Assembly: GCF_027409185.1 (NCBI RefSeq)
Contig: NC_084468.1
Coordinates: 48,547,001-48,611,000, forward strand
Direction of reading: 5' to 3'
From: Cynocephalus volans
Taxonomy: Eukaryota; Chordata; Mammalia; Dermoptera; Cynocephalidae
DNA: 64,000 nt
This document shows, in pieces, positions 37,599 through 64,000 of this stretch. How positions within the stretch are numbered: position 1 is the first letter of the stretch; every line of letters starts with the position of its first letter. Below the pieces are notes generated by a model that was not told where the DNA came from, did no database searches, and was given only the letters and a program-made list of their open reading frames with translations. Both the position numbers and the translations under genes were made by a program.

Positions 37599-40500
37599 AT
37601 GCTAAGAATAAATCAACACCTTTCAATAACAACTCTTAATGTTAAAGGCTTAAATTCCCCAATTAAAAGACACAGACTGGCTGACTGGATCAAAAAGCAG
37701 GACCCAACTATATGCTGCCTACAAGAGACCCACCTCACCCATAAAGATTCACACAGACTAAGAGTAAAAGGATGGAAAAAGATTTACCATGCAAACAGAA
37801 AAGAAAAACGAGCTGGAGTGGCTATTCTTATATCTGACAAAATAGACTTTAAACTAAAAACCATAAAAAGAGACAATGAGGGACACTACTTAATGATAAA
37901 AGGACTGATCCATCAAGAAGACATAACAATCATAAATATGTACGCACCCAATGTTGGAGCAGCCAGATTTATAAAACAAACTCTATTAGACCTAAAGAAG
38001 GAAATAGACACTAATACCATAATAGCAGGGGACCTGAACACTCCACTGTCAATATTAGACAGATCATCTAGGCAAAGAATCAGTAAAGAAACACAAGATC
38101 TAAACAAGACTCTAGACCAATTGGAATTGGCAGATATCTACAGAACATTCCACCCAACAACCTCAGAATATTCATTCTTCTCATCAGCACATGGATCATT
38201 CTCCAAGATAGATCACATATTAGGTCACAAATCAAGTCTCAATAAATTCAAAAATATTGGAATTATCCCATGTATCTTCTCAGACCACAATGGATTAAAA
38301 CTAGAAATTAATAACAAACAAAACTCTGGAAACTATACAAACACATGGAAATTAAACAGCATTCTACTTAATGACATATGGGTCCAAGAAGAAATCAAGC
38401 AGGAAATCAAAAAGTTTATTGAAACTAATGAAAACAATGATACATCATACCAAAACCTGTGGGATACTGCAAAAGCAGTATTGAGGGGAAAATTTATTGC
38501 ATTAAATGCTCACTTCAGAAGAATGGAAAGATGGCAAGTGAACAACCTAACACTTCACCTTAAAGAACTAGAAAAACAAGAACAATCCAATCCTAAAGTT
38601 AGCAGACGGAAAGAAATCATTAAGATCAGAGCAGAACTGAATGAAATTGAAAACCAAAAAACAATTCAAAAGATCAACGAATCAAAAAGTTGGTTTTTTG
38701 AAAAGATAAATAAAATTGACAAACCATTAGCATGGCTAACAAAAAAAAGAAGAGAGAAGACTCAAATAACCAAAATTAGAAATGAAAAAGGCGATATTAC
38801 AACTGATTCATCTGAAATACAAGGAATCATTCGAGACTACTATAAACAACTATACGCCAACAAATTTGAAAATCTGGAGGAAATGGATAAATTTCTGGAC
38901 ACACACAAGCTCCCAAAACTGAACCGTGAAGACGTAGAAAATTTGAACAGACCAATAACAATAAAGGAGATTGAAGCTGTTATCAGAAGGCTCCCAACAA
39001 AGAAAAGCCCAGGACCAGATGGATTCACAGCAGAATTTTATCAAACATTCAAAGAGGAATTGACACCGATTCTTTACAAACTATTCCAAAAGATTGAAAT
39101 GGACGCAAATCTCCCAAACTCATTCTATGAAGCAAACATCATCCTGATACCAAAACCAGGTAAAGATATAACCAAAAAAGAAAACTACAGGCCGATATCC
39201 TTGATGAATATAGATGCAAAAATCCTCACTAAAATACTAGCAAACAGAATACAGCAACACATACGAAAAATTATTCATCACGATCAAGTGGGATTCATCC
39301 CAGGGATGCAAGGTTGGTTCAACATACGCAAATCAATAAATGTGATACACCATATTAATAAACTCAAACACAAGGACCATATGATCATCTCTATAGATGC
39401 TGAAAAAGCATTTGATAAAGTTCAGCACTCATTCATGACAAAGACCCTCTATAAGTTAGGTATAGAGGGAAAGTATCTCAACATAATTAAAGCCATATAT
39501 GCCAAACCCACTGCCAATATCATCCTGAATGGGGAAAAGCTGAAAGCTTTTCCTTTAAGAACAGGCACTAGACAAGGATGCCCACTCTCACCACTCCTAT
39601 TCAACATAGTGTTGGAAGTACTAGCCAGAGCAATCAGAGAAGAGAAGGAAATAAAGGGCATCCAGATTGGAAAAGATGAAGTCAAACTGTCCCTGTTTGC
39701 AGATGACATGATCCTATATATTGAACAGCCTAAAACCTCTACAAAAAAACTGTTGGAATTGATAAATGATTTCAGCACAGTAGCAGGATACAAAATCAAC
39801 ACACAAAAATCAGTAGCATTTCTTTTCTCCAATAGTGAACATGCAGAAGGAGAAATCAAGAAAGCCTGCCCATTTACAATAGCCACCAAAAAAATAAAAT
39901 ACTTAGGAATTGAGTTAACCAAGGAGGTGAAAAATCTCTATAATGAGAACTACAAACCACTGCTGAGAGAAATTAGAGAGGATACAAGAAGATGGAAAGA
40001 TATCCCATGCTCTTGGATTGGAAGAATCAACATAGTGAAAATGTCCATACTACCCAAAGTGATATACAAATTCAATGCAATCCCCATCAAAATTCCAAAG
40101 ACATTTTTCTCAGAAATGGAAAAAACTATTCAGACATTTATATGGAACAATAAAAGACCACGAATAGCCAAAGCAATGCTCAGCAAAAAAAATAAAGCTG
40201 GAGGCATAACACTACCTGACTTTAAGCTATACTACAAAGCTATAATAACCAAAACAGTATGGTACTGGCATAAAAACAGACACACTGACCAATGGAATAG
40301 AATAGAGAATCCAGAAATCAACCCTCACACTTACTGCCATCTGATCTTTGACAAAGGCACCAAGCCTATTCACTGGGGAAGGGACTGCCTCTTCAGCAAG
40401 TGGTGCTGGGATAACTGGATATCGTTATGCAGGAGAATGAAACTAGATCCATACCTCTCACCATATACTAAAATCAACTCAAAATGGATTAAGGATTTAA

Positions 40501-41426
40501 ATATACACCCTGAGACAATAAAACTTCTTAAAGAAAACATAGGAGAAACACTTCAGGAAATAGGACTGGGCACAGACTTCATGAATACGACCCCAAAAGC
40601 ACGGGCAACCAAAGGAAAAATAAACAAATGGGATTATATCAAACTAAAAAGCTTCTGCACAGCAAAAGAAACAATTAAAAGAGTTAAAATACAACCAACA
40701 GAGTGGGAGAAAATATTTGCAAAATATACATCTGACAAAGGATTAATATCCAGAATATATAAGGAACTCAAACAACTTTACAAGAAGAAAACAAGCAACC
40801 CAATTAAAAAATGGGCAAAAGAGCTAAGTAGGCATTTCTCTAAGGAAGATATCCAAATGGCCAACAGACATATGAAAAAATGCTCAACATCACTCAGCAT
40901 CCGGGAAATGCAAATCAAAACCACATTGAGATACCATCTAACCCCAGTTAGGATGGCTAAAATCCAAAAGACTATGAACGATAAATGCTGGCGAGGCTGC
41001 GGAGAAAAAGGAACTCTCATACATTGTTGGAGGGACTGCAAAATGGTGCAGCCTCTATGGAAAATGGTATGGAGGTTCCTTAAACAATTGCAAATAGATC
41101 TACCATACGACCCAGCCATCCCACTGTTGGGAATATACCCAGAGGAATGGAAATCATCAAGTCGAAGGTATACCTGTTCCCCAATGTTCATCGCAGCACT
41201 CTTTACAATAGCCAAGAGTTGGAACCAGCCCAAATGCCCATCATCAGATGAGTGGATACGGAAAATGTGGTACATCTACACAATGGAATACTACTCAGCT
41301 ATAAAAACGAATGAAATACTGCCATTTGCAACAACATGGATGGACCTCGAGAGAATTATATTAAGTGAAACAAGTCAGGCACAGAAAGAGCAATACCACA
41401 TGTTCTCACTTATTGGTGGGAGCTAA
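37599..41426 (+). CDS. ORF2: L1 ORF2p, endonuclease and reverse transcriptase
   Basis: It encodes 1275 aa, the same length as human ORF2p, starting [23 protein letters not shown]2p nicks target DNA and copies L1 RNA at the nick (target-primed reverse transcription). Landmarks fall at the human residue numbers: endonuclease N14, E43 (QETHL), Y115 (YAPN), D145 and N147 (GDLN), D205 (KIDH), D229 and H230 (SDHN); reverse transcriptase D600 ([10 protein letters not shown]) and F700-A-D702-D703 (FADD); the C-terminal CX3CX7HX4C cluster C1130, C1134, H1142, C1147. I found no missing catalytic residue. Translation in this family depends on unconventional reinitiation after ORF1. Whether less conserved positions weaken activity cannot be told by eye. 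Confidence 0.96.
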
Positions 41427-41635
41427 AAATTAATATATAAATTCACACACACACATGCACACATACACACACAAACCGGGGGGGGGGGGAAGAAGATATA
41501 ACAACCACAATTATTTGAAGTTGATACAACAAACAAACAGAAAGGACATGGTTGGGGGGGAGGGGGGGAGGGAGAAGGGAGGGAGGTTTTGGTGATGGGG
41601 AGCATTAATCAGCTACAATGTATATCGACAAAATA

Positions 41636-52965: not shown

Positions 52966-53134
52966 ATTTTTTGTTAGCATATTCATTCTTACAAATCATA
53001 ATTATTCTTTCATGACTCTTACTGGACCAACCCTCCCCCACCACTCCCTAACCCACTGCCTCCCTCCCCCTCATCTCTATTATGCTTAGGTTTGTTCTCT
53101 CCTTCTGAAAGCTCAATGAATAATTGTAGTCCGT

Positions 53135-53229
53135 CCTTCCTTCCTTCCTTCCTTCCTTCCTTCCTTCCTTCCTTCCTTCCTTCCTTCCTTCCTTCCTTCC
53201 TTCCTTCCTTCCTTCCTTCCTTCCTTCCT
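53135..53229 (+). repeat. (TTCC)n microsatellite
   Basis: A nearly pure 95-bp tetranucleotide tract. It produces false Pro-Ser-Phe-Leu and Arg-Lys-Glu-Gly frames on the two strands. Confidence 0.97.
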
Positions 53230-53419
53230 CTCTCTTCTTTTTTTCCTTCTTTCTTAGCACCCAGTTATAAGTGAGGACATACAGTAATTCTTTTCCTATG
53301 TCTGGCTTATTTCATTTAATTTTCTTCAAGCTCATCCATGTTACTGCAAATAGCAGAATTTCATTCTTTTTTAGGGCTGAGTAGTATTCCATTGTGTATA
53401 TACACCACATTTTCCTTAT

Positions 53420-53591
53420 CCAGTTGTCTTTTTTTTTTTTTTTTTTTCTTTGTCTTTTACGTGACCGGCACTCAGCCAGTGAGTGCACCGGCCATTCCTA
53501 TATAGGATCCGAACCCGCGGCGGCGGGAGCGTCGCCGCGCTCCCAGCGCCGCACTCTCCCGAGTGCGCCACGGGCTCGGCCCCAGTTGTCT
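53420..53591 (-). mobile_element. GC-rich tRNA-derived SINE (CYN-like), minus strand, in L1 copy A
   Basis: The body at 53430-53581 is the most complete copy here: T tail, GTGACCGGCACTCAGCCAG, reversed B box GGATCCGAACC, and CCCGAGTGCGCCACGGGCTC at the end. Perfect 10-bp duplications CCAGTTGTCT lie at 53420-53429 and 53582-53591; removing the SINE restores the L1 sequence. Rich in unmutated CpGs, so young. Confidence 0.9.
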
Positions 53592-55552
53592 GTTGATGGA
53601 CATATAGGTAGGTTCCATATTTTAGCTTTTGTAAATATAGCTGCAAATGAACATGGGAATGTAGATATACCTTTGGCATAATGATTTCCGTTCTTTTGGA
53701 TACATACCCAGTAGTGGGATTGCTGGTTCATATGGTAGTTCTATCTGTAGTTGTGTGAGAAACCTCCATACTGTTTTCCATAATGGCTGTGCTAATTTAC
53801 AGTCCCACCAACAGTGTAGAAGAGTTCCCGTTACCCTGCGTCCTCACCAGCATTTGTTATTCTCAGTCTTCTTGATAATGGCCAGAATAACTGGGGTGAA
53901 ATGATATCTCAATATGGTTTTGATTCGCATTTCCCTGATGATTAGTGATGTTGAGCATTTTTTCATGTACCTGTTGGCCAGCTGTATGTCTTCCTTTAAA
54001 AAATGTCTATTCATCTGCTTTGCCCATTTTTAGATTGGATTATTTGTTTTTTTACTGTGTAGTTGCTTGAGTTCTTTGTATATTCTGTATAATAATCACT
54101 TGTCAGATGTGTAGTGTGCAAATATTTTCTCCCATTCTGTGCATCATCTTTCTACTCTGTTGATGTTTCCTTTGCTGTGCAGAAGTGTTCTAGTTTGATA
54201 TAATCCTATTTGTTTATTATTTTCTTTTGATGCTTGTGCTTTTGAGGTCTTATTCATAAAGTCTTTGACCAGTCCTACTTCCTGAAGTGTTTCCCCTATG
54301 TTTTCCTTAACTAATTTTGTGGTTTGGGCTCTTATATTTAAGTTTTTATAAAATTTTGAGTTGATTTTGGCATATAGTGAGAGGTACAGGTCCAGTTTCA
54401 TCCTTCTGCATATGGATGTCCAATATTTCCAGCACCATTTATTGAAGAGGGATTCTTTCCCCAATGTATGGTCTTGTTGCCTTTGTCAAAGATCAGTTGG
54501 CTGTATATGGGATGATCCTGGGTTTTCTATTCTGTTCCACTGATCTGATTTTCTGTTTTTATGCCAATACCACATGCTGTTTGGGTTACAGTAGCTTTGT
54601 GATATAATTTGAAGTTGGGTAGTGTTATGCCTCTGGTTTTACTTATTTTTCTTAGGATTGCCTTGGCTATTTGGGGTCTTTTGCTGTTCTATGTGAATGT
54701 TAGAATTGTTTTTTTCTATTTCTGTCAAGAGTGTCATTGGTGTTTTGATGGGGATAGCATTGAAACTGTAGATTGCTATGGATAGTATGGACATTTTTCA
54801 TGATGTTAATTCCTACAATCCAAGACCATGGCATGTCTTTCCACCTTTTTGGGTCCTCTTTAATTTCTTTCAGGAGTGTTTTGCAGTTCTCATTGTAAGG
54901 ATCTTTCACCTCCTTGGTTAAATTGATTCCTAGGTATTTTATTGTTTTGGTGACTATTGTAAATGGGCTTGCTTTCTTGATTTCTTTTTCTGCTAGCTTT
55001 TTATTGGAGTATAAAAATACTACTGATTTTTGGGTATTGATTTTGTATCCTTCAGCATTACTGAAATTGTTAATTAGCTCTAAGAGTTTTTTGGTGAATC
55101 TACAGGTTTTTCTCTAAATAAGGTCATGCTGTCTGCAAACAGGGACAGTTTGACTTTGTCCTTTCCAATCTGGATGCCTTTTATTTCTTTGTCTTGCCTG
55201 ATTGCTCTGACTAGTACTTCTACTACTGTGTTAAATAGGAGTGGTGAGAATGGACATCCTTGTCCTTTTCCTGTTCTTAAGGAAAAAGCTTTCAACTTTT
55301 ACCTATTCGGGATGACATTCCCAATTGGTTAGTTGTATGTGGCTTTTATTGTGTTGAGATAATTTCCTTCTATACCTGATTTGCTGAGAGTCTTTATCAT
55401 GAAGGGATGTTGAATTTTCTCCTATGCTTCTTCTGTATCTATTCAGATAATCATATGTTTTTTTCCCCTTTGTTTTGTTGATGTGGTGTATCATATTTAT
55501 TGACTTGTGTATGTTGAACCAACCTTGCATGATGAGTCCCACCTGATCACAG

Positions 55553-55965
55553 GGATGGAGTTTGGATGTCTTGTCCCCTCCAAAACTCATGTGGAAACTT
55601 GATCTCAAATGTAGCAGTGTTGGAAACTGATTGAGTCATGGGGCAGATCCCTCATGAATGGATTAATGCTCTCCCTGGGGGAGGAGGGGTAGTGAGTGGG
55701 TTTCCACCCTATTAGTTCCCATGAGAGTTGATTGTTTAAAGGACTCTGGCACTTCCTCTCTCTCTCTCTCTCTCTCACTTCCTCTCACCATGTGATCTGC
55801 TTGTACCTGCCAGCAGCCTGCCACTTTTCTGCCATGAGTAGAAACAGCCTGAGGCCCATGCCAGATGGAATTGTCCTAGAATTATAAGCCAAATAGACCT
55901 ATCTTCTTTATAAATCACTCAGTCTCAGGTATTTCTGTTATAGCAACACAAAATAGACTAAAACA
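55553..55965 (+). repeat. 5' LTR of MaLR provirus
   Basis: GGATGGAGTTTGGATG to CACAAAATAGACTAAAACA. The first base appears changed from T to G. It contains a (TC)n stretch near 55,757-55,776. Confidence 0.88.
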
Positions 55966-57049
55966 GAAAATTGGTACTGAGGAGGGGGGTGTTACTATAC
56001 AGATACTTTAAAATGTGGATGCAGCTTTGGAACTGGGTAATGGGCTAAGGTTGGAGGAGTTTGGAGGACTTAGAAGAAGAGAAAAAGATGAGGGAAAGTT
56101 TGGAAGATTTTAGAGACTGGTTAAATGGCTGTGACTAGAATGTCAATAGAAACATGGACAGTAAAGACCATGTGGATGATGAGGTCTCAGATAGAAATGA
56201 GGAACTTATTGGGAATTGGACAAAAGATCACCCTTGCTATACCATAGCAAGGAATTTGGCTGCATTGTGTCCATGCCCTTGGACTTTGTGGAAGATGGGA
56301 CTTAAGAGTTGTGAACCAGAGTATCTGGCAGAAGAAATTTCCAAGCAGCAAAGCATTAAGGATGCTGCATGGTTATTTCTAACAGCCTATGCTGAGTTAT
56401 GGTGGAAAAGGCAAGATGTAAAGCCAGAATTTAAAAGGGGAGCAGAGCATAAAGACTTGGAAAATTTGCAGCATGGCCATGTGGTAGAAAAGCAGAGAGC
56501 ATGCAATGGTGCAGCCCAATGACCATTAGCTAAGATTAGTACAAAGGAAAGGGATTATCAAGAGAAGGAGAAAAAGGTCCTGAAGGCATTGCAGAAGGCT
56601 CTGGGGCCAACCATTCCATTTCAGGCCCAAAGGCCTAGGGAGACAGAATGGTCTTGGGGAACAGGCCTGAGGCACCCTCCATGGGCTTGCGGCCCAGGGC
56701 CTCCTCGAGAAGCTGCTTCCAGCACCAGCACCCCAGCTGCTTTGGCTGCTCCAGCTGTGGCTAAATTGGCCCCAGGTGTGGCTGGACCCACAGCTTTGGG
56801 AAATACAAGCCAGAAGTCTTGGCAGATCCACGTGGTGTTAGGTCTGCAGGCTCACAGAATGCCAGAGCTGGGAAGTCTTGGGAGCCTCCACCCAGATTTC
56901 AACGTATGTATGGAAAAGTTTGGGGGCCCAGGAAGAGATCTGTCACAGTGGTGGAGTCACCACAGACAGCCTTTGCTAGAACAATGCTGAACAGAAATGT
57001 GGAGTCAGAGTTGCAGCAGAGAAGCCCCAATAGCGCCATGCCTAGTGGA

Positions 57050-57100
57050 GCCATGAGAGTGGGACTGCCATGAGAGTGGGACTGCCATGAGAGTGGGACT
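57050..57100 (+). repeat. 17-bp tandem repeat, three units
   Basis: Unit GCCATGAGAGTGGGACT, three identical copies starting at 57050, 57067 and 57084, inside the MaLR internal region. Confidence 0.92.
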
Positions 57101-57573
57101 GCCATGGAGCTACCAGAGTGGAACACCAGCCTGGGAGAGCTGAAGTGTGGCCTGAGACCAGGAAAGCCATAGGAGCAGAGCTGCCTAAGGACTTGGGGAC
57201 CCAACCCCCACACCAGCGTGACGAGGCAGTCGAACATGGAATCAAGGTACCTGATTTACCAGCCTTGAGATTTAATGCCTGCCCTGCTGGGTTTTGGACT
57301 TGTTTGGGACCTGTTTTTCCTTTCTTTTGGCCTATTCCTCCCTTTTGGAATGGGAATGTATACCCAATGTCTGTTCCACCATTGTATCTTGGAAGTCAGT
57401 AAATTTGGTTTTGTTTTTCAGGTTCACAGCTGGAAGGACTTTTGCTTTTGGTCTCAGATGAGACTTTGGACTTTTAAGTTGGTGCTGGAGCAAGCTAAGA
57501 CTTTTGGGACTGTTGCAATAGAATGTATCTTGTATGTGAGAGTGACATGAGTTTTGGGGGAGCAGGGGGGGGA

Positions 57574-57991
57574 TGATGGAGTTTGGATGTGTTGTCCCCT
57601 CTAAAACTCATGTGGAAATTTGATCTCCAATGTGGCAGTGTTGGAAACTGATTGAATCATGGGGGTTTATCCCTCATGAATGGATTAATGCTCTCCCTGG
57701 GGGAGGAGAGGTAGTGAGTGAGTTCTCACTCTATTAGTTCCCATGAAAGCAGATTGTTTAAAGGACCCTGGCACCTCCTCTCTCTCTCTGTTTCTCTCTC
57801 TTACTTCCTCTCTCCATGTGATCTGCTTGTACCCACTGGCTGCCTGCCACTTTTCTGCCATGAGTAGAAACAGCCTGAGGCCCGTGCCAGATGCAACTGT
57901 CCCAGAATCATAAGACAAATAAACTTCTCTTCTTTATAAATCACTCAGTCTCAGATATTGCTGTTATAGCAACACAAAGCAGACTAAAACA
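57574..57991 (+). repeat. 3' LTR of MaLR provirus
   Basis: TGATGGAGTTTGGATGTG to AGCAGACTAAAACA, with intact TG/CA ends. Confidence 0.88.
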
Positions 57992-59083
57992 CACGGTGTA
58001 TAATTTTTTTATGTGTTGCTGTAATCTGGTTGTTAATATTGTGTTGAGGATTTTTGCATCTATATTCATCAGTGATATTGGCCTGTAGTTTTCTTAGTTT
58101 GTTGTTTCTTTATTTGGTTTTGGTATCAGGGTAATGCTGGGCTTACAGAATGAGTTTGGGAGAACGGCTTCTGTTTCAACTTTTTGTAATAGTTTAAGAG
58201 AATTAGTATTAATTCCTCTTTAAAAGTCTGGTAGAATTCAGCAGTAAAGCTATCCAGTCCTGGGCTTTTCCTCGTTGGAAGATTGCTGATTATTGTTTCA
58301 ATATCATTGCTTGTTATTGGTCTGTTCAGGTTCTCTATTTCTTCTTGGTTCAGTCTTGGTAGTTTGTATGGGTCCAAAAATTTATCCATTTTTTCCAGGT
58401 TTTTATATTTGTTTGTGTACAGTTGTTTAAAATAATCTCTAATGATTGTTTGTATTTCTGTGGTATCAGTTGTAATGCCTCTCTTTCATTTCTGGTTTTT
58501 GCCATTTGGGTCTTCTCCTTTTTTTTTTTTTTTTTTTTTTTGCTAACCTAGAAAATGGTTTGTTTATTTTACTTATCTTCTCAAAAAACCAACTTTTTTT
58601 TTCAAAGATCTTTTGTGTCATTTTTTGGGTCTTTGTTTCATTTTCATTTAGTTCTGACCGATTATAATTATTTCTTTCCATCTACTACTTTTAGAATTGG
58701 ATTGTTGTTGTTTCTCTAGTTCTTTGAGGCACAGTGTTAGGACATGTATTTGAAGTCTTTCCATTCTTTGGATGTAAGCATTAATTGCAATAAACTTCCC
58801 TCTTAATATTGCTTTTGCAGTATCCCACAGATTTTAGTGTGATGTACCTTAGTTTTTGTTAGTTTCAAGAATTTTTTTTTCTTCCAAATTTTATTTTATT
58901 TTGTCAATATACAATGTGGTTGATTATTGTGGCCAATTACTGAAACCTCCCTCCCTCCTCCCTCTCCCCACTCCCTCCCAACAATGTCCTTTCTGTATGC
59001 TTCTTGTATCAACTTCAAGGAATTGTAATTGTTATGTCTTCTTCCCTACCCAACCGGGTGTTTGTGTATTTATTTATTTATTT

Positions 59084-60116
59084 TTAGCTCCCACAAATAA
59101 GTGAGAACATGTGATATTTCTCTTTCTGTGCCTGACTTGTTTCGCTTAATATACTTCTTTCTGGGTCCATCCATGCCATTGCAAATGACAGTATTTCATT
59201 CTTTTTTATAGCAGAGTAGTATCCTGCTACTTTGCTGAAATCATTTATCAACTCCAAGAGTTTTTTTGTAGAGGCTTTAGGCTGTTTGATATATAGGATC
59301 ATGTCATCTGCAAAGAGGGATAGTTTGACTTCATCTTTTCCAATCTTGATGCCCTTTATTTCCTTCTCTTCTCTGATTACTTTGGCTAGTAGTTGAACAC
59401 TATGTTGAAGAGGAGTGGTGAGAGTGGGCATCCTTGTCTAGTTCCTGTTCTTAAAGGAAAAGCTTGCAGCTTTTCCCCATTCAAGGTGATACGGGCAGTG
59501 GGTTTATCATATATGGCTTTAATTATGTTGAGGTATTTTCCATGTATACCTAACTTGTAGAGAGTCTTTGTCATGAATTAGTGTTGAATTTTATCAAATG
59601 CTTTTTCAGCATCTATAGAGATGATCATATGATCCTTGGGTTTGATTTTATTGATATGGTGTATCACATTTATTGATTTGCATACGTTGAACCAACCTTG
59701 CATCCCTGGGATGAATCCCATGATTGTGGTGTATAATTTTGCATATGTGTTGCTGGATTCTGTTAGCTAGTATTTTATTGAGGATTTTCACGTCTATATT
59801 CATCAAGGATATTGGACTGTAGTTTTCTTTTTTAGTTGTATCTTTACCTGGTTTTGGTATCAGGATGATTTTTGCTTCATAGAATGAGTTTGGGAGAATT
59901 GTCTCTGTTTCAATCCTTTGGAATAGTTTGTAGAGAATTGGTGTCAATTCCTCTTTGAATGTTTGGTAGAATTATGCGGTGAATCCATCTGGTCCTGGGC
60001 TTTTCTTTGTTGGGAGCCTTCTGATAACAGCTTCAGTCTCTTTTATTGTTATTGCTATGTTCAGATTTTCTACATCTTCTTGGCTCAGTTTTGCACAGGG
60101 GCCATGCTAATCTTCC

Positions 60117-60149
<33 letters not shown>

Positions 60150-61481
60150 AAAGTGAGCATTTGGCTCAGTTTTGGTAGCTTGTGTGTGTCCAGAAATTTA
60201 TCAGTTTCCTCCAGATTTTCAAATTTGTTGTCATATAGTTGTTTATAGTAGTCTCAAATGATTCCTTGTATTTCAGATGTATCAGTTGTAATATCACCTT
60301 TTTCATTTCTAATTTTTGTTATTTGGATCTTCTCTCTTCTTTTTTTAGTTAGCCATGCTAATGGTTTGTCAATTTTATTTATCTTTTCAAAAAACTAACT
60401 TTTTGATTCATTGATCTTTTGTGTTGTTTCTTGGGTTTCAATTTCATTAAGTTCTGCTCTGATTTTAATGATCTATTTCCGTCTGCTAACTTTGGGTTTG
60501 GATTGTTCTTGTTTTTCTAGTTCTTTAAGGTGAAATGTTAGATTGCTCACTTGCCATCTTTCCATTCTTCTGAAGTAAGAATTTAATGTGATAAATTTCC
60601 CCCTTAGTACTGCTTTTGCAGTATCCCACAGGTTTTAGTATGATGTATCATTATTTTCTTTAGTTTCAATAAATTTTTTGATTTCCTGTTTGATTTCTTC
60701 TTGGACCCATATGTCATTTAGTAGAATGCTGTTTAATTTCCATGTGTTTGTATAGTTTACAGAATTTTGTTTGCTATTGATTTCTAATTTTAATCCATTT
60801 TGGTCTGAAAAAATTCATGGGATAATTCCAATTTTTTTGAATTTGTTGAGACTTGATTTGTGACCTAGCGTGTGATCTATCCTGGAGAATGATCCATGTG
60901 CTGATGAGAAGAATGAATATTCTGAGGTTGTTGGTTGTTCTGTAGATATCTGCCAAGTCCAATTGGTCTAGAATGTTATTTAGATCTTTGGTTTCTCTGC
61001 TGATTCTTTGCCTAGATGATCTGTCCAATATTGACAGTGGGGTGTGCAGGTCCCCTGCTATTATGGTATTAGTGTTTCCTTCTTTTGGTCTAATAGAGTT
61101 TGTTTTATAAATCTGGCTGTTCCAACATTGGGTGAATATATATTTATGATTGTTATGTCTTATTGATGGATCAATCCTTTTATCATTATGTAGTGGCCCT
61201 CATTATCTCTTTGTATGGCTTTTAGTTTAAAGTCTATTTTATCAGATATAAGAATAGCTACTCCAGCTCGTTTTTCATTTCTGTTTGCATGGTAAATTTT
61301 TTTTCCATCCTTTTACTCTTAGTCTATGTGAGTCTTTATGGGTGAGGTGGGTCTCTTGAAGGCAGCATATAGTTGGGTCCTCCTTTTTGATCCAGTCAGC
61401 CAGTCTGTGTCTTTTGATTGGGGATTTTAATCCTTTTACAGTAAGAGTTGTTACTGAAAAATATTGATTTACTCCCAGCAT
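59084..61481 (-). pseudogene. degraded L1 ORF2 of copy B
   Basis: The start is recognisable (MLGVNQYFSVTTLTVKGLK at 61,481), but the catalytic N14 is replaced by T. Frameshifts and stops follow. The reverse transcriptase FADD is intact near 59,300. Immediately after [10 protein letters not shown] (human-like residue ~730) the frame jumps to [10 protein letters not shown] (residue ~1231) and ends FSLICGS. The fusion is in frame, but the protein would lack the thumb and Cys-rich regions. Confidence 0.85.
60080..60173 (-). pseudogene. U6 snRNA retropseudogene, 3'-truncated and tailless
   Basis: The minus strand of 60160-60093 matches U6 snRNA nucleotides 1-68 with about five differences, three of them CpG-type changes. 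It stops at CCCCTGTGC and has no poly(A). TTGGCTCAGTTTT flanks it at 60080-60092 and 60161-60173, a perfect 13-bp duplication of L1 sequence. It is thus an independent insertion into L1 copy B, not an L1 5' chimera. The upstream U6 promoter elements are absent, so expression is unlikely. Confidence 0.9.
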
Positions 61482-61668
61482 TTTATTGGTTTTTGTTTGG
61501 ATGTCTTAGGTGTCTTTTGTTCCTTTCTTTCTGATTTACTGTTTGTTTTCTGTATTTGTTGGCTCCTTGGTTTGTAGATAAACTTTTTTTTTTGTCTTCT
61601 CTTCATTGTTGCCATTTTAATTTTACTAGTGGGTTTTGATTTTTCTTGGGTTTTTATGGAAGTGGTAG

Positions 61669-62648
61669 TTATTTTTCAGGTACCAAACCCAGTACTCCCT
61701 TGAAAATTTCTTGAAAGGGTGGTTGTGTGGTAGTGAACTCCTGCAGTTTTTGTTTGTCTGAGAAATATACTATTTGCCCTTCATTTTGGAAGGATAGCCT
61801 TGTAGGGTAGAGTATTCTTAGCTGGCAATCTCTGTCTTTAAGTATTTTGAATATATCCTCCCATTCCTTTCTGGCTTTTAGGGTTTGTGATGAAAAGTCT
61901 GATGTTAGTCTGATTGGGGCTCCCTTATAAGTGATTTGATGTTTCTCTCTTGCAGCTTTTAAGATTCTGTCTTCGTCTTTGAGTTTTGCCAATTTGACTA
62001 TAACATATCTTGGAGAAGACCTTTTTGGGTTGAATATGTTTGGGGATCTTTGAGCTTCCTGAATCTGAAGATTTGTGTCTTTTCCTATACTTGGGAAGTT
62101 TTCTGTTACTATTTTGTTGAATATGTTTTCAATGCAATCTCCTTTTTCCTCCCCTTCGGGAATACCCATGACTCCGATATTTGAGCACTTATGGTTGTCT
62201 GATATCTCTCTTAGATTTTCTTCAATGTTTTTAATTCTTTTTTCTATTTTTTTTTGTCTGCCTGTGTTATTTCAAACAACCCATCTTCAAGGTCAGAAGT
62301 TCTCTCTTCTGCTTCTGCAAGCCTGCTGGTTAAACTCTCTGTTGTGTTTTTTATTTGGTTGAATGAAGTTTTCAGCTCAGCAAGCTCTGCTACATTCTTT
62401 TTCAGGGCATCGATTTCCTTGTACATTTCTTCTTTCAGATCCTGTATATTCCTCATTTCATCATGTTGTCTAGCTGGGTTTTCTTGTATCTCATTTAGTT
62501 TCCCTAGAATTATCACTCGAAATTTCTTGTCAGACATTTCAAGGGCTTCTTATTCTACATGACCTAGAGCTTGAGAGTTATTACCCTTTGGTGGTGTACT
62601 TTCTTGATTTTTCATATTTCTGGTATCTTTCTTTTGATGTTTAGTCAT
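61669..62648 (-). pseudogene. degraded L1 ORF1 of copy B
   Basis: It begins MTKHQKKDTRNMKNQESTPP at 62,648, hits a stop soon after residue 30, and continues in other frames through the coiled coil (62,537-62,244) and the RRM/C-terminal domains (62,169-61,669, ending GLVPEK). At least two frame breaks. Confidence 0.85.
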
Positions 62649-62985
62649 TGTGGCAGGGGATTTCATGGTCCACTGGTTTGACACTATTGTCTGGCTAGGA
62701 TGCTGCTGGGGCTTCCAATATGGTACAGTTGCCTCAGTGTCTGCTTGGTTGCCCACTAGTACCTTGGGCGTGTGGTCACCTTAGGTCTTGGGTATTGCCA
62801 CGGAGGTGTCTCTCTGGTCAGCATGCATTTGGCCAGGCTGGGGATGGAGTTGAATGGCAGTGGCGAGGCCTACCTGCTGGGTCACGCAGGGTGTGTGGTC
62901 TCCACGGAACTTCCACTTCTCTGGCTGGGCGCCTCTTTGATACACGTGCACTTGGCTGGGCTAGGGTGGAGTCCTGGCTCTATTT

Positions 62986-63165
62986 TAGATGATCTCTGAG
63001 GTTACAACAAACTGTGGCCACCTTAGAAGACTGAAGGAAGCCTCAGTTCATCTCAACATGCAAGGCGCTTGCATGTCAGCTCTTCCAAAGTCTTCTGTCC
63101 TCCATTTAGATACTGTAATACAATAGTTTACTAATATAATCCCTCTAGGTTATAACTAATAGGAG
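62986..63165. other. unassigned filler between L1 fragments
   Basis: No L1 similarity recognised. It separates the 5' end of copy B from an antisense endonuclease scrap. Confidence 0.4.
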
Positions 63166-63249
63166 TGACTACTATCTCTTTTTTTAGGTCTAAGAGTGTT
63201 TGTCTTACAAAGCTGGGTGCTCCAGTGTTGGGTGCATATATTTATGACA
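63166..63249 (-). mobile_element. antisense L1 endonuclease scrap
   Basis: The minus strand of 63,249-63,166 corresponds to ORF2 residues about 113-135 (around the YAPN motif). It is either the displaced 5' part of copy A or the inverted 5' segment of the sense L1 that begins at the next base. Confidence 0.7.
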
Positions 63250-64000
63250 AACCTATTGTTACCAAAAGAGCATGGTACTGGCATAAAAACAGACAATCAG
63301 ATCAGTGGAACAGAATAGAAAACCCAGGATCATCCCATATACAGCCAACTGATCTTTGACAAAGGCAACAAAGACTCCCTTTTTAATAAATGGTGCTGGA
63401 AATATTGGACATCCATATGCAGAAGGATGAAACTGGACCTGTACCTCTCACTATATGCCAAAATCAACTCAAAATTTTATAAAAACTTAAATATAAGAGC
63501 CCAAACCACAAAATTAGTTAAGGAAAACATAGGGGAAACACTTCAGGAAGTAGGACTGGTCAAAGACTTTATGAATAAGACCTCAAAAGCACAAGCATCA
63601 AAAGAAAATAATAAACAAATAGGATTATATCAAACTAGAACACTTCTGCACAGCAAAGGAAACATCAACAGAGTAGAAAGATGATGCACAGAATGGGAGA
63701 AAATATTTGCACACTACACATCTGACAAGTGATTATTATACAGAATATACAAAGAACTCAAGCAACTACACAGTAAAAAAACAAATAATCCAATCTAAAA
63801 ATGGGCAAAGCAGATGAATAGACATTTTTTAAAGGAAGACATACAGCTGGCCAACAGGTACATGAAAAAATGCTCAACATCACTAATCATCAGGGAAATG
63901 CGAATCAAAACCATATTGAGATATCATTTCACCCCAGTTATTCTGGCCATTATCAAGAAGACTGAGAATAACAAATGCTGGTGAGGACGCAGGGTAACGG
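63250..64000 (+). mobile_element. sense L1 ORF2 fragment, inverted duplicate of copy A, runs off the window
   Basis: It matches ORF2 from about residue 882 onward. Bases 63,385-64,000 equal the reverse complement of 53,828-54,443 at every position I compared (616 bp), including shared stops and the 85-codon frame at 63,427. Bases 63,295-63,371 are also identical to copy A, but a patch at 63,372-63,384 carries a deletion of about 17 bp and substitutions. The element continues past the right edge. Confidence 0.9.

Follow-up and report, generated by a model that had tools for sequence, protein, structure and literature searches.

The stretch of DNA under study, hereafter the window, comprises 64,000 nucleotides of contig NC_084468.1 of Cynocephalus volans (positions 48,547,001-48,611,000) and carries towards its right end two L1 copies in opposite orientation, called A and B, that share a block of exact identity. 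Very probably this identity was produced by a recent gene conversion, patchy and without crossover, between the two arms, which are separate insertions from one old L1 group. The genome used for comparison amounts to 2.81 Gb in 130 contigs. The sequence was also read for 19 kb beyond the right edge of the window, and coordinates preceded by "ext." carry the window numbering past 64,000. A full-length L1 of the window, called C, served as reference. The features of the two arms are the following, SINE standing for short interspersed nuclear element.

53239..55552, minus strand: copy A, the 3' part of an old L1 (L1-A), interrupted by a SINE, placed by alignment to C
53432..53581, minus strand: SINE in A, presumably tRNA-like (judged by eye), with the 10-bp target-site duplication AGACAACTGG on either side, from the alignment of A with B
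53592..53654, minus strand: run reaching the SINE, identical in A and B (0 differences in 63 columns; 6 shared derived changes in 62 scored)
53655..53703, minus strand: outer patch, where 49 bp hold 6 A/B differences (5 derived in A, 1 derived in B)
53704..54443, minus strand: putative main conversion tract in A, 740 bp, matching 63,385-64,124 exactly in reverse complement
54444..54475, minus strand: apparently unconverted patch 1, 3 substitutions and a 17-bp deletion in B
54476..54550, minus strand: putative inner converted run, A identical to B, 4 shared derived changes in 75 sites
54551..54606, minus strand: apparently unconverted patch 2, adjoining the 5' junction of B; 4 A-only changes, 3 B-only changes and 1 site where both differ among 52, and a 2-bp insertion in A
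63243..64000, on to about ext. 64,818, plus strand: copy B, a separate 5'-truncated L1 (63241-64425 aligned to C 40228-41433, 76.8%)
63385..64000, on to ext. 64,124, plus strand: putative main conversion tract in B, an exact match to A

An earlier note, made by reading the window alone, had described a perfect inverted repeat of 616 bp reaching the window edge. Direct comparison of 53,828-54,443 with the reverse complement of 63,385-64,000 found 616 of 616 bases identical. Repeat finding with mismatches tolerated returned the same arms, extended to 631 nt, on either side of a spacer of 8.9 kb. The block is in fact cut by the window edge: it runs on to 53,704 in A and ext. 64,124 in B and then ends, for an exact length of 740 bp. 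The first inner mismatch lies at 54,444/63,384, which places the exact inner limit at 54,443/63,385. Past the block both arms diverge again while staying within L1 sequence. The differences that the note had reported just outside the block are also real: its patch at 63,372-63,384 corresponds to three substitutions beside the 17-bp deletion in B, and divergence resumes left of 63,295.

L1 pairs of this kind come nowhere near such a length by chance: simulation of 20,000 pairs of 1,180 sites at 14.6% divergence gave identical runs of at most 89, and the 325 pairs formed by 26 other genomic copies gave at most 75. Over the core, the best of these 325 pairs reached 90.2% identity (median 87.5%), and among the copies compared none matched the tract at more than 88.4%.

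The history of the changes was examined in an alignment of A, B and C with these 26 copies, taken out of 38 other matches listed. The listing scored 40 out of 13,514 candidates, so that copy counts are lower bounds, and some of the 26 copies span only part of the aligned stretch. Columns were scored only with at least 13 copies, and those lacking a 70% majority state were called unclear (22 of 739 in the core). In the 739 core columns, A and B together depart from the majority 54 times and neither does so alone; 25 of these 54 shared changes occur in at most one of the 26 other copies. The load of changes is equal in the two arms (54/717 each) and fits the flanks of neither copy better. No bias towards GC was evident among the core shared changes, with 19 weak-to-strong, 20 strong-to-weak and 16 neutral changes (55 columns, under another filter).

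The pattern is reversed in the 245 columns that appear unconverted (14 in patch 1, 52 in patch 2, 85 and 94 beyond the SINE). There, 17 changes are private to A and 16 to B, both copies differ at 3 columns, and only 4 changes are shared, of which 2 are rare. B keeps the majority state where A carries private changes just outside the core. Two further stretches resemble the core, namely the inner run 54,476-54,550 (4 shared changes in 75 columns, 3 of them rare) and the run to the SINE, where 4 of the 6 shared changes are rare. The outer patch is mixed: its 49 columns hold 5 A-only changes, 1 B-only change and 4 shared changes, 3 of them rare. Changes shared inside the block and private outside it are the mark of non-allelic conversion, as is the local jump in identity, from 239 of 280 sites (85.4%) in patch 2, the outer patch and the sequence beyond the SINE to 740 of 740 in the block. 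In those unconverted parts the best other copy is 86.0% identical to A and 87.2% to B, so that A and B are no closer to each other than that.

The borders of the block are equally patchy. Patch 1, where the 29-row alignment has a shifted gap and 4 substitutions, is flanked on both sides by an identical run. Of 67 patch sites, 12 differ, compared with 0 of 693 in the two runs (Fisher p 8e-14), although the patches were picked after inspection and the run-length test is the fairer one. In patch 2, A and B differ at 8 of 52 sites, up to the 5' junction of B at about 63,243. Beyond the SINE, towards the L1 3' ends, they differ at 7 of 85 and then at 20 of 94 aligned sites; a separate alignment of 241 positions gave 84.6% identity. 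The SINE itself, which the note had proposed to look for in the right arm past 64,000 (as 53,430-53,581), is absent from B: the alignment of A with B past the window places an empty site near ext. 64,237. The 63 columns from 53,592 to 53,654 may have been converted as well, as an outer stretch, or may go back to an older event. As for the five A-derived changes of the outer patch, all are transitions, clustered in 49 bp between stretches where A and B are identical. Conversion of this patch from one of the 26 copies compared was considered and rejected, since at most two of the five A-derived states occur in any one of them (one copy has no letters at this place).

Both arms belong to a nested L1 architecture. 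A aligns to C on both sides of its SINE (53582-55573 to C 41255-39255 and 53239-53422 to C 41441-41253, both at 77.8%). The remainder of the locus, including an element with long terminal repeats (LTRs), is arranged as follows.

55552..57993, plus strand: LTR element within L1-A, which we take to be of MaLR type (a name from the earlier note), with LTRs at 55,552-55,968 and 57,573-57,993
57994..58878, minus strand: body of L1-A, resuming past the LTR element (57995-58930 to C 39279-38356, 76%)
58879..62900 (limits approximate), minus strand: L1 "Y", a further L1 within L1-A, with a long 5' part, placed by alignment to C
63156..63243, minus strand: short L1 ORF2 piece, in the order and on the strand of L1-A, placed by alignments to C and Y

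The longest alignment of Y to C covers 59029-62845 (C 39990-36233, 86%), and about 1.5 kb present in C (C 39,791-41,288) is deleted inside Y. The ORF2 piece matches C (63172-63247 to C 38007-37930, 81%) and Y (63156-63247 to Y 61058-61149, 74%), and is read as probable host sequence at the 5' end of B. The 3' end of B is placed by a weak match (64636-64820). Directly past it, sequence assigned to L1-A resumes at ext. 64,819-65,956 (C 37,576-36,421, 71%). Judging by order and strand, both this stretch and the ORF2 piece are likely parts of L1-A. Lying on the plus strand between the two last L1-A pieces, B is apparently an L1 that inserted later, into the upstream part of L1-A. Twin priming is a route by which L1 insertions acquire a 5' inversion, and such an inversion of B would be an alternative to nesting; nested insertion fits better, since 63,156-63,247 takes its expected place among the L1-A pieces and L1-A continues from ext. 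64,819, directly past B. The L1-A pieces 57995-58878, 63172-63247 and ext. 64819-65956 are all on the minus strand and in monotonic order. Non-allelic homologous recombination between the arms with net inversion was therefore rejected: provided that these pieces belong to one L1, as their arrangement suggests, the spacer bears no sign of it.

Several other observations were made on these elements. The insertion site of B, between 63,247 and ext. 64,819, lacks about 350 bp of L1-A (C 37,930-37,576), and a further 400 bp or so (C 38,409-38,007) are absent around Y, between 58,878 and 63,172, as if the insertions had removed target DNA. Some 200 bp between the 5' region of Y and the ORF2 piece (62,950-63,155) have no strong match to C or Y. 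Both L1 3' ends pass into long simple repeats, at 53,130-53,249 and ext. 64,419-64,640 (GGAA; then GA and AAAG in B); the L1 3' untranslated region itself perhaps seeded microsatellite growth twice at these ends. Inside Y lies a 3'-truncated U6 small nuclear RNA pseudogene (60,094-60,162, minus strand; Rfam U6 match 60,053-60,160, E 4.5e-17, whose low-coordinate part extends into L1). Flanking it on either side are about 12 bp of L1 sequence (C 38,914-38,925 aligned twice), resembling a target-site duplication, and there is no poly(A) tail; the pseudogene resembles tailless retropseudogenes.

The LTRs of the MaLR-type element differ at 39 of 414 aligned sites (9.4%, Kimura two-parameter distance 0.102), within the 8-10% estimated by eye in the earlier note, whose argument that A has been in place long enough to gather private mutations is sound. 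Zero differences in 740 sites give a 95% upper bound of about 0.4% on the divergence of the core. Neutral mammalian sequence is assumed to change at 2.2e-9 per site and year. At this rate the identity of the core would be under about 1 million years old and the LTR divergence would represent roughly 23 million years. The identity thus looks far younger than the elements that carry it.

These observations lead us to infer the following course of events. Two L1 copies of one old group would have inserted independently, in opposite orientation and about 9 kb apart; the differing 5' extents of A and B, the SINE found in A only and their own L1 3' ends identify them as separate insertions. A break or a stalled fork in one copy could then have been repaired by copying the other arm, i.e. 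by non-allelic gene conversion, with a local fold-back allowing the inverted arms to meet. Patchy repair of the heteroduplex would have made the 740-bp core identical and left unconverted patches at the 17-bp indel and towards the ends, and resolution would have proceeded without inversion of the spacer. Some points weigh against this course. The outer patch combines 3 rare shared changes with 6 A/B differences in 49 sites and is not neatly explained by a single event; an older round or a cluster of changes specific to A are possible explanations. The identity of about 85% in the unconverted parts is below the ranges proposed for conversion, namely about 92% for efficient conversion in a passage of a review (PMC3966225) and an optimum of 89-100% cited in part of another account (PMC8230782). 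Finally, an inverted control pair of L1 copies, L013 and L027, 47 kb apart, is not homogenised (636 of 734 sites identical, 86.6%).

Several rounds of conversion over time instead of one, with an older and wider event now partly diverged, are a variant of this reading that we hold somewhat less likely than not: rare shared changes occur in the outer patch (3/49) and in the run to the SINE (4/62) at a density like that of the core (25/739), but the numbers are small, the six differences of the outer patch lie close together, with none in the run to the SINE. A more speculative version, which we hold somewhat less probable still, is that an L1 inserted in antisense into an older relative, creating an inverted repeat of about 1 kb whose copies traded sequence on more than one occasion although they are only about 85% identical outside the exchanged parts, with the SINE as a barrier. 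That exchange stopped at a SINE present in one arm only is suggested by the outer identical run ending at the SINE site, which is suggestive only.

The explanations that dispense with conversion fare worse. The earlier note had put forward a recent inverted duplication, patchwise conversion of the inverted repeat and a fold-back assembly error; the independent private changes outside the block, their absence inside it and the patch between identical runs support the second. An assembly artefact, in which the core of the right arm was built from reads of A by a fold-back chimera, a wrong gap fill or polishing, is improbable, though what doubt is left about the conversion lies here. It would account for perfect identity between repeats in a single assembly, in which contigs may be scaffolds. 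However, the window and the 19 kb beyond it contain no N, on a contig of 152.8 Mb, and on either side of the block B is flanked by sequence not shared with A, in register with L1, which includes the 17-bp deletion, the majority base at sites derived in A and the empty SINE site. An 8.9-kb spacer and homologous block ends are ill-suited to a fold-back read, and mapping should not confuse copies about 15% apart. A recent inverted duplication, or break-induced copying of the left side of A into the right arm, would explain an exact identity that starts at a homologous point, but it is very unlikely. The exact copy stops after 740 bp within L1, the L1 3' end that follows in B is its own, at about 85%, diverged L1 lies on both sides, the majority state persists in B where A has private changes, and the SINE of A is absent. 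The end of the exact identity within L1 and the missing SINE also contradict an inverted segmental duplication. That B is a retrotransposed copy of RNA from A itself can practically be dismissed. B is 5' truncated and carries the private core changes of A, as such a copy would, but its flanks contradict this origin: at A-derived sites immediately beyond the core it is in the majority state, it carries private changes that A does not have, and it has no SINE.

Recent conversion between the inverted L1 copies would make this locus a clean natural record of the process, in which one patch inside was left unconverted and a heterology lies at one limit. Age estimates of repeats are misled by conversions of this sort. 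They also bring inverted arms closer to each other in sequence, and later inversion of the 8.9-kb spacer should become likelier as a result. The locus further illustrates that an assembly fault is not the only possible source of a perfect inverted repeat found at the edge of a window.

The process itself is already known, and the identity of about 85% in the unconverted parts is its one mildly unusual point here. No paper listed in the literature searches dealt, by its title or abstract, with conversion between inverted L1 copies, which is not to claim that none is in print. Conversion between neighbouring repeats is described as established for Alu in passages of two accounts, according to which the rate of non-allelic conversion falls with distance and is raised below about 10 kb (PMC8230782; PMC6598467). 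The present case resembles Alu-Alu conversion, and also that reported for LTRs, in involving nearby copies within about 10 kb that are locally identical; it differs by the L1 nature of the repeats, the 740-bp tract and the lower identity around it. For the human Y palindrome P6, part of one report gives a mean conversion tract of 2,068 bp and rare inversions (PMC3723533). There too, inverted repeats are kept alike by conversion, rarely with inversion, but that excerpt concerns a large palindrome, of a class with arm similarity over 99.9%, whereas the colugo arms are short, old, diverged L1 copies with one main core. In yeast, pairs of Alu repeats that are widely spaced, diverged and inverted can interact in cis, with heterology suppressing the interaction only beyond 25%, as stated in part of the study concerned (PMC10164571). 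The likeness lies in spaced, divergent inverted repeats that can meet in cis; in yeast the interaction is a fold-back in single-stranded DNA and its outcome is a gross chromosomal rearrangement, in contrast with the local conversion proposed here.

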